Assembly: GCA_963170055.1 (NCBI GenBank)
Contig: CAUJGJ010000242.1
Coordinates: 4,073,639 to 4,137,638 of the forward strand
Length of the DNA: 64,000 bases
Direction of reading: 5' to 3'
Origin: Halisarca cf. caerulea
Taxonomy: Eukaryota > Porifera > Demospongiae > Chondrillida > Halisarcidae
The notes below the pieces were generated by a model. The model ran no database searches. It had not been told where the DNA came from and worked only from the letters and a program-made list of their open reading frames with translations. The first letter of the stretch is position 1. Each line of letters starts with the position of its first letter. Below are positions 10,752 through 22,247 of this stretch, piece after piece. The position numbers and the translations under genes were made by a program.

Positions 10752-13700
10752 TCAATTGTTGCTTGTTCCTTCCAGCAAACATTTGATGCTGCGTAAGATC
10801 CTGTGTCGATGGCCTAAGGCAGACACTCCTATGTCATCCCTCAGTTGGGCGTGGTCCAGGGAGACCAGACACTCCCCATCCACCGCTTGGTCACGGAAGG
10901 CACCAGCAAACTGCTCTAACCCTCGTTCTAACATCCACTGATGGACATCAGCCACTGACCAGCCAATGATCTCAGCTATTAAACAGAAAATGCATAATAA
11001 CAATAAACAATAACACTTAATATTAGTTCATACAACCAAGCACACACACACACACACACACACACACACACACACACACACAAAAACATACACACACACA
11101 CACACACACACACACACACACACACACACACACACACACACGTACACACACACACACACACACACCTCTCAGGTTTCCATTCTGCCCATGAGAGTCTTGA
11201 GTGGCAGGGTGTGGTGGACCAGGCTCCTCTCTCTTTCCATTTCCTACAGCTTTGTAGCCAAACATGTCGTCAAGGACAGACTTCTCCAGGACCAGTGGTT
11301 CCATCTTCAGCTTGTTAGCACCACTTACGGCTTCTGTGAACAACTAACAGATACCATCCCATAAAGTACAGTCTTTTAGTACTCCACTATGGGATGCCTC
11401 ACCTTAACAACCTCCTCCAGTGTGCTGTACTTCTGGGGGTAAGGCTTGACAACATACTTTCCATTGTCTAAAGTAACTTTCCAATTTCTCATTTCAGAAT
11501 GAGTTCTGAACACAATTGCAAAGTCATTTGGATTCTTCTCGCTAGGTCGGACAATAAAGGATCCAGCTCTGGGGATGGGGGGGTGGAGTGATGTCACAGA
11601 TCACAACATATGACAGCTGGAAAATGACATACCGTCCATATTTGGTGAGGACAGTCTCCGCTCCTCCACGACCTAAATGCAGGATAAATGATCTGTTCCA
11701 CTTCTCAACAGATGGGGCCTACAGAAAAGGAGAATCCCTTAACACACACACACACACACACACACACACACACACACACACACACACAAAGTACCTTGTC
11801 CATCTGCACCGAGTCTTGTTTGGTTAGCTCTCTCTTCTCTGCTTTTCTCGCCTGTGACTGCTTGTCTTGAAGCTTCAATTCATGCTCAAGCAGTAGACGA
11901 GTTTCTGACTCCATACGAAGTGCTTCCTCTTCCTGTTTAGCTCTCACTTCCTCTTCCTGTTTAGCTCTTACTTCCTCTTCCTGCTTAGTTGTCACTTCCT
12001 TTTCCTGTTTGAGCAGTCTAAGCTGATCTTCCTGTTTCCGTCTGAGTTCCTCTTCCTGTTTTAGCCTCTTTTCCATCATCATCTTGTGGTTAACAGTCTT
12101 CACAATTCTCTTAACATGCTCCAGAGATAGGGAGTTCTTAGCACTGGACATGACAGCCAACTTCTATAGTAGTCATAATTGTACCACACAAAACCAAACT
12201 ATCACATGGAGAGTGGATGGGAGGTGGGGAGTGGGGGAGATGGGGAGATGGGGAGATGGGGAGGTAGGGGAGATGGGGAGGTGGGGGAGATGGGGAGGTA
12301 GGGGAGATGAGGGAGATGGGGAGGTAGGGGAGATGGGGAGGTAGGGGAGATGGGGAGGTAGGGGAGATGGGGAGGTGGGGGAGATGGGGAGGTAGGGGAG
12401 ATGGGGAGGTAGAGGAGATGGGGAGATGAGGGAGATGGGGAGGTGGGGAGGTGGGGGAGACAGGGAGATGGGGAGATGAGGGAGATGGGGAGGTGGGGAC
12501 ATGCAGAACTCACTTTAACTTTCTTCCATTCTGACGAGTATAATTCAGGACACACTCCCATAGCAACAGTGAGACTTGTGTGCTCACAAAGTGCTCGAGA
12601 AAAATTCTATATTTTGAAAATAATGACAAAATGAACCTAGACATGGTGGGTGTGGTATTGATGGAAGTCACACACTTGAACAAAGGAGTCCAATGACGGA
12701 AAACACTGGTTTTGGCCCCAACAATATTGACCGTCTACAGTTTGCACTATCCAATGCTTTATTCCAGTCAAGTTCCTGACAGCACAAGAACAAAGAGATC
12801 ATAATCACATACATCACCACTCTACCATGCCCACCCCCTCTTTGCCCCTCCCCCCCCGCCCTCACCATCACCATCACAATCATATAACCACATAAGCAGG
12901 GGGTGCAGGGTGGCTCAAGAGCTAGCCTGTGTGGATATGACACCAAAGTGTGTGGGTTCGATTCCCAACCTGCACCCCTTGCTTGTTTGGGAAAAAAGTG
13001 CAGCTACTTAAGCCACACAATGTGTATGTAAAAATCATGTGTGATTTGCATGAGTTCCGTGGGCCCTGGTGGAGTAGCCTCAGACTAAAGGGGTCCCACG
13101 TAAGCAAACCTGAATGACACAGCAAGCTGTCCAGGCCGTGTTAAACTGTCCCTCAATAGGTAACTTCCGGGAGCCATCTTCCCCAGGAGTCGATCACAAT
13201 CCATTCGAGAAAGACCTGAATACACACACTAGTAGAGGGTACATAGAGGATGGTACATAGAGGATGGTACACAGAGGACGGTACATAGAGGACGGTACAC
13301 AGAGGACGGTACATAGAGGACGGTACATAGAGGACGGTACATAGAGGACGGTACACAGAGGACGGTACATAGAGGACGGTACATAGAGGACGGTACATAG
13401 AGGACGGTACGTAGAGGACGGTACACAAAGGACGGTAAGTGTAGATGTGACTAAAGCTATACTTCCACCATGGGAGGTCCATGTCTCACCAGTACATCCT
13501 CTGGCATTCGCTCCTCACCACGAATCTCCTTCAGAGAAGTGTAGTAAAGTTCAGAGGCTTGTTTCGTGGGCACAATGTTCATGTCCCCAAACAAAGAGTT
13601 CTGAAGAAGTTTGAGAAGAGCACCTTTGTCTTCCTTGTCAATAGCTAACGACACTACTTGTAACAAGTGTTCTTCTACAGATGTATAGGGGAGGGGAGGG

Positions 13701-22247: not shown

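Follow-up and report, generated by a model that had tools for sequence, protein, structure and literature searches.

A sponge gene predicted to join an IQGAP-type CH domain, two SH2 domains and a SAM domain in one chain

A single gene of 16 exons in the sponge Halisarca cf. caerulea encodes a predicted 757-residue protein with the domain order CH-SH2-SH2-SAM, and this protein is probably a non-catalytic adaptor that would dock on doubly tyrosine-phosphorylated partners and tie them to actin. The gene lies in a 64,000-nucleotide stretch of contig CAUJGJ010000242.1 (the window), to which coordinates refer unless another locus is named. That it is one gene is confirmed, and chance is excluded because the spliced product recurs in independent public proteins and six other proteins have the same order. 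In commonly studied animals, phosphotyrosine readers reach actin through adaptor chains (Nck, Vav and IQGAP bound in trans); one chain bearing two phosphotyrosine-type pockets together with a CH domain of IQGAP type would short-circuit the route from tyrosine kinases to the cytoskeleton. The order is kept in demosponges and calcareous sponges, one of the deepest animal branches, and offers an example of how, early in the history of animals, SH2 domains came to be joined to old cytoskeletal modules. It is carried by a single gene of which the searched literature gave no description, and its function is testable by simple binding assays.

The gene was rebuilt from the sequence as 16 minus-strand exons between 22247 and 10752, with an AG acceptor and a GT donor at each internal boundary and agreement of all 15 intron phases. 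The original prediction of 16 minus-strand exons in one phase-matched frame is borne out, including its outer coordinates; its product of 762 residues was five too long, the single rebuilt frame having 757 residues and a stop. The features are as follows.

22204..22247, minus strand, exon 1: start codon and residues 1-14, preceding the CH domain; present in P0013
20358..20514, minus strand, exon 2: initial part of the CH domain (Pfam); present in P0013
20141..20218, minus strand, exon 3: CH domain with RHTDN and IGLPK (Pfam and PDB matches); present in P0013
19653..19852, no strand, assembly gap of 200 N: within intron 3, adjoining a tandem-repeat array; exons 3 and 4 are joined in P0013
14949..15096, minus strand, exon 4: end of the CH domain with TIDIYE; present in P0013
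14585..14682, minus strand, exon 5: IQGAP-like tail after the CH domain; first exon common to P0013 and P0001
14419..14514, minus strand, exon 6: QYQAMG block and acidic insert with Tyr200 (EEQDDIYDS)
13846..13978, minus strand, exon 7: linker with a short predicted beta hairpin
13490..13674, minus strand, exon 8: helical linker with weak likeness to an IQGAP internal repeat
13457..13489, minus strand, start of intron 8, retained in P0013: a stop (13459-13457) is reached, giving a CH-only frame of 323 residues
13110..13228, minus strand, exon 9: SH2-1 with pocket GSYLLRDS (Arg339)
12676..12775, minus strand, exon 10: SH2-1, GIKHW strand
12514..12606, minus strand, exon 11: end of SH2-1
11795..12163, minus strand, exon 12: long charged inter-SH2 helix or coiled coil, not kept in relatives
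11633..11718, minus strand, exon 13: start of SH2-2
11403..11568, minus strand, exon 14: SH2-2 with pocket GSFIVRPS (Arg576); the alignment with P0012 stops at the exon end
11166..11343, minus strand, exon 15: end of SH2-2 and a linker with prolines
10752..10975, minus strand, exon 16: SAM domain and stop codon; an AATAAA-type signal lies downstream near 10624

Intron 3 also holds a long tandem-repeat array at 15710-19223, beside the 200-N gap.

Two public JGI proteins jointly cover all exons. P0013 (three members, two contigs) is identical to the model at 312 of 313 positions over residues 1-313, joins exons 1-8 and bridges the assembly gap at 19852-19653; it then reads on into intron 8 and ends after residue 323. 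P0001 is identical at 607 of 609 positions to residues 149-757 and joins exons 5-16, including the 8/9 junction. Exons 5-8 are common to both, and the two proteins agree over 162 residues until they first differ. The P0001 contig measures 2342 bp against a genomic span of 3931 bp for exons 5-16, and the longest P0013 contig 1400 bp against 8758 bp for exons 1-8; by this comparison of sizes (not letters) both must be spliced, lacking the introns that they cross, and they are likely to be RNA-derived. No one Halisarca contig joins CH to SH2, P0001 starting in exon 5 and P0013 entering intron 8, and the 2342-bp contig of P0001 has room for sequence beyond the matched part. The break that had been suspected between exons 13674-13490 and 13228-13110 is absent in P0001, which joins both, and P0013 shows that intron 8 can be retained. 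Such retention, perhaps regulated, possibly gives a CH-only form. A genome search for paralogues (27 candidates scored) gave 17 matches, 15 of them the gene's own exons and two single-domain matches elsewhere; a processed retrocopy as the origin of the spliced contigs was rejected, no second copy being among these matches.

The predicted domains scored above the curated Pfam cut-offs: CH at 11-123 (E 1.1e-13), SH2 in two stretches (E 9.6e-21, best 319-387) and SAM at 688-750 (E 5e-15). PDB matches placed the second SH2 domain near 557-629. Matches to Cbl_N3 and NuiA_2 fell below their cut-offs, and WW, IQ, RasGAP, RasGAP_C, kinase, DH and p85 domains gave no Pfam match at E up to 1; NCBIfam, with no match for three family proteins, is uninformative here. 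Together with PDB matches and profiles, the Pfam results support the predicted IQGAP-type CH domain, two SH2 domains with pocket arginines, C-terminal SAM and absence of a WW, IQ or RasGAP part. Sequence matches of the SAM domain to solved structures include those of SARM1/TIR-1, Shank2 and tankyrase, SAM domains that oligomerise.

The CH domain is of IQGAP type. In a sequence search of solved structures the IQGAP1 CH domain was the best CH match (E 6.5e-37); in a profile comparison with four IQGAPs the CH domain, together with the roughly 50 residues that follow, aligned over 172 columns (E 1.2e-39); and in a fold search with the model of the Halichondria ortholog the best CH match was again that of IQGAP1 (3i6x, TM 0.84 on target). 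The linker before SH2-1 appears to resemble an IQGAP internal repeat weakly: its profile matched one of the four IQGAPs, P0007, with i-E 7e-4 at 212-241 and a weaker 0.79 at 345-391, and gave no match (E up to 5) in any of the remaining three. Judged by sequence, the N-terminal part is IQGAP-derived by descent. Compared with IQGAP1-3 and fungal Rng2, the protein thus shares the IQGAP-type CH domain and tail, and possibly one internal repeat, whereas WW, IQ, RasGAP and RasGAP_C are absent, so that it is not an IQGAP by membership, and SH2-SH2-SAM is present instead. Exons for RasGAP_C occur on another contig of the same genome (C81), and a second IQGAP-type CH exon lies on the same contig as the gene (C226:3486721; about 6707-6916 of L024, plus strand); the gene is therefore an addition rather than a replacement of IQGAP. 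PMC11843583 describes IQGAP1, the mammalian analogue, as phosphorylated on Tyr-1510 under MET and c-Src, with SH2/PTB proteins among its partners; these are met in trans, whereas the window protein carries SH2 domains in the same chain.

Seven relatives were found, all with a CH domain and six with the full CH-SH2-SH2-SAM order in Pfam. The exception, P0012, has CH and two SH2 domains without SAM and leaves the alignment at the end of window exon 14, and may therefore derive from an intron-retaining transcript. A first protein search recovered P0002 (28% identical over 84% of the query, same Pfam set); P0002 as query led to P0004 and P0005 (an uncharacterized Sycon ciliatum protein), and a four-sequence profile to P0009 from Halichondria panicea, P0010 from Amphimedon queenslandica, P0011 and P0012. 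The first search alone overlooked P0004, P0005 and P0009-P0013, all recovered by later searches. Each search (cut-offs 1e-3, 1e-10 and 1e-20) scored the 7,992 to 7,997 candidates sharing most words, a pre-selection that may miss choanoflagellate or other members; outside the family, the candidates scored gave only IQGAPs (P0003, P0006, P0007 and P0008). The three named relatives with the full order, LOC109589532 (Amphimedon), LOC135344660 (Halichondria) and LOC135811005 (Sycon), are all from sponges and are likely orthologs, although about a third identical or less and without the coil. Sycon belongs to Calcarea, and Halichondria and Amphimedon to Demospongiae; the order therefore dates back at least to the common ancestor of the three, unless it had two separate origins.

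Identity to the model is 235 of 708 aligned places for P0005, 226 of 680 for P0004 and 228 of 697 for P0002; over the CH domain alone it is 63 to 66 of 126 for these three. An unrooted tree of the eight sequences (support 93 to 100 for main groups, 89 for one inner node) separates Halichondria, Amphimedon and P0011 from Sycon, P0004, P0002 and P0012; between these two groups the window protein sits at the end of a long branch (1.21). The original prediction knew of no protein described with this order. This stands in so far as the searched literature, covered mostly at title and abstract level with a mention in some table possible, gave no description of CH-SH2-SH2-SAM and no paper for LOC109589532, LOC135344660 or LOC135811005; it does not stand for databases, which already hold the order in unnamed predicted proteins from Amphimedon, Halichondria and Sycon.

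Both SH2 domains retain the alpha-A and beta-B arginines in all eight sequences, with Arg321, Arg339, His360, Arg557 and Arg576 invariant, and the GIKHW strand of SH2-1 is the same throughout. The window protein departs from its relatives at Asn597 in SH2-2 (His in 7/7) and Ile362 in SH2-1 (Lys in 6/7), departures through which its pocket strength may differ. Between the IQGAP-like tail and SH2-1, an acidic insert contains a tyrosine in all eight sequences, recognized by eye and at differing alignment columns: the window protein has EEQDDIYDS and P0012 has LIYDS, while the Halichondria-Amphimedon group shows FDDPKY or FDDPTY and the Sycon group AIYDP, ENIYDQ or ENIYDP. This tyrosine is likely a phosphorylation site. 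In the seven relatives the inter-SH2 coil is missing or has given way to another spacer (proline-rich in the Sycon group). Spacer length and kind differ between species, which argues against a fixed two-site geometry. The coiled coil, initially taken as part of the design, is local to this species, and the comparison drawn with the SH2-coil-SH2 layout of p85 fails with it.

AlphaFold models of P0009 and P0001 (mean pLDDT 65.7 and 65.8; pTM 0.51 and 0.38) predict the CH helices (P0009), both SH2 folds and, at low confidence, the SAM helix set, with low confidence between domains; in the P0001 model much of the inter-SH2 spacer is one long helix. A fold search with P0009 placed the tandem SH2 domains of SHP2, SYK and ZAP-70 among the best matches, with SHP2 above SYK, and some of the matched structures are bound to doubly phosphorylated peptides. 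The best 50 matches of P0001 include SHP2, SHP1, p120RasGAP and Nck2 and do not include SYK or ZAP-70, in ranked output where absence proves nothing. For matches spanning two SH2 domains the rmsd was at least 15, and the way the domains are placed relative to each other therefore does not agree. SHP2/SHP1 are the best tandem-SH2 match by both sequence and fold, whereas the window protein has no phosphatase domain and a far longer spacer. Vav likewise has CH and SH2 in one chain; the window protein differs in its IQGAP-type CH domain, its two SH2 domains and SAM, and the lack of a DH, PH, C1 or SH3 match.

Two readings that would divide the protein or give it a catalytic partner were rejected. 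If a CH-only gene and an SH2-SH2-SAM gene had been merged in the model, P0013 would be the complete first gene, as its stop in intron 8 after residue 323 and the start of P0001 at residue 149, without CH, might suggest; but exons 8 and 9 are spliced together in P0001, which has exons 5-8 in common with P0013, six relatives hold all four domains in one frame, and intron 8 contains no AATAAA or ATTAAA, all of which leaves two genes very improbable. The long helix predicted between the SH2 domains in Halisarca recalls a p85-like regulatory subunit whose coil holds a PI3K-type catalytic partner, and the SH2-helix-SH2 layout is common to both as far as that helix goes. We give this reading hardly any credence, as the coil is missing or replaced in the seven relatives and Pfam gives no p85 inter-SH2, SH3 or RhoGAP match.

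Two further readings retain the whole protein and assign it other partners. It is unlikely that the protein, as an IQGAP minus its C-terminal half plus SH2 and SAM, serves chiefly to scaffold IQGAP partners in the manner of an IQGAP: CH and tail do share 172 aligned columns with IQGAPs, and the linker has a weak match to a repeat in one of four, but WW, IQ, RasGAP and RasGAP_C are all missing and RasGAP_C exons elsewhere in the genome indicate that IQGAP has not been replaced. A kinase-less counterpart of Syk/ZAP-70, in which the SH2 pair would read ITAM-type tails, for example that of the predicted membrane protein with FN3 domains encoded by the neighbouring gene, and bring actin rather than a kinase, is likewise doubtful. 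The two systems share two SH2 domains, a helical spacer (at least in Halisarca) and fold matches, SYK and ZAP-70 with ITAM peptides being among the best 50 for P0009; the window protein lacks a kinase domain in Pfam and adds CH and SAM. The neighbour's tail-like frame at 9057-10058 (plus strand) contains YAKLHRPKHVYDSL, a match to the ITAM pattern (YxxL-x6-YxxL) and the only one among frames of at least 60 residues in the window; shuffling of this frame gave a match in 136 of 20,000 shuffles. Against this, gene neighbourhood is weak evidence in animals, the motif test was post hoc, SHP2 outranks SYK with P0009, and the best 50 with P0001 contain neither SYK nor ZAP-70. Quite improbable is the fuller proposal that sponges keep a kinase-less Syk-like reader built on an IQGAP-derived scaffold, its SH2 pair clamping doubly phosphorylated receptor tails of ITAM type (e.g. 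the FN3 neighbour's), its CH and SAM domains forming a polymerised actin anchor and its intron-8 retention supplying a CH-only antagonist.

The adaptor reading, which we prefer, is suggested by two SH2 pockets, an actin-type CH domain and a SAM domain without an enzyme. The two SH2 domains would bind phosphotyrosines together as a bidentate dock on phosphorylated tails. IQGAP CH domains bind F-actin, although actin binding is lacking in many single CH domains, and we infer by analogy with the former that the CH domain of the window protein would bind F-actin. Oligomerization through SAM would then produce a multivalent patch beneath the receptor once that is activated. The acidic-insert tyrosine, once phosphorylated, might recruit partners or, by folding back onto the SH2 domains of the same chain, act as an off switch, and retention of intron 8 could release the CH-only form.

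The gene is flanked by other predicted coding sequence. The convergent neighbour at 4392-10058 (plus strand) has FN3 domains in frames 6036-6400 and 7532-7960, a hydrophobic stretch near 7880-7950 and the tyrosine-rich, tail-like frame 9057-10058 with YAKLHRPKHVYDSL; it is known as separate frames with exons unjoined. Just upstream of the gene, an open frame at 22950-24293 (minus strand) encodes a WD40 protein. To the left of the window, an open frame of at least 738 residues (L029, 3-2219, plus strand) ends in a SAM domain (E 3.5e-21) that is 38% identical to the SAM domain of the window gene.
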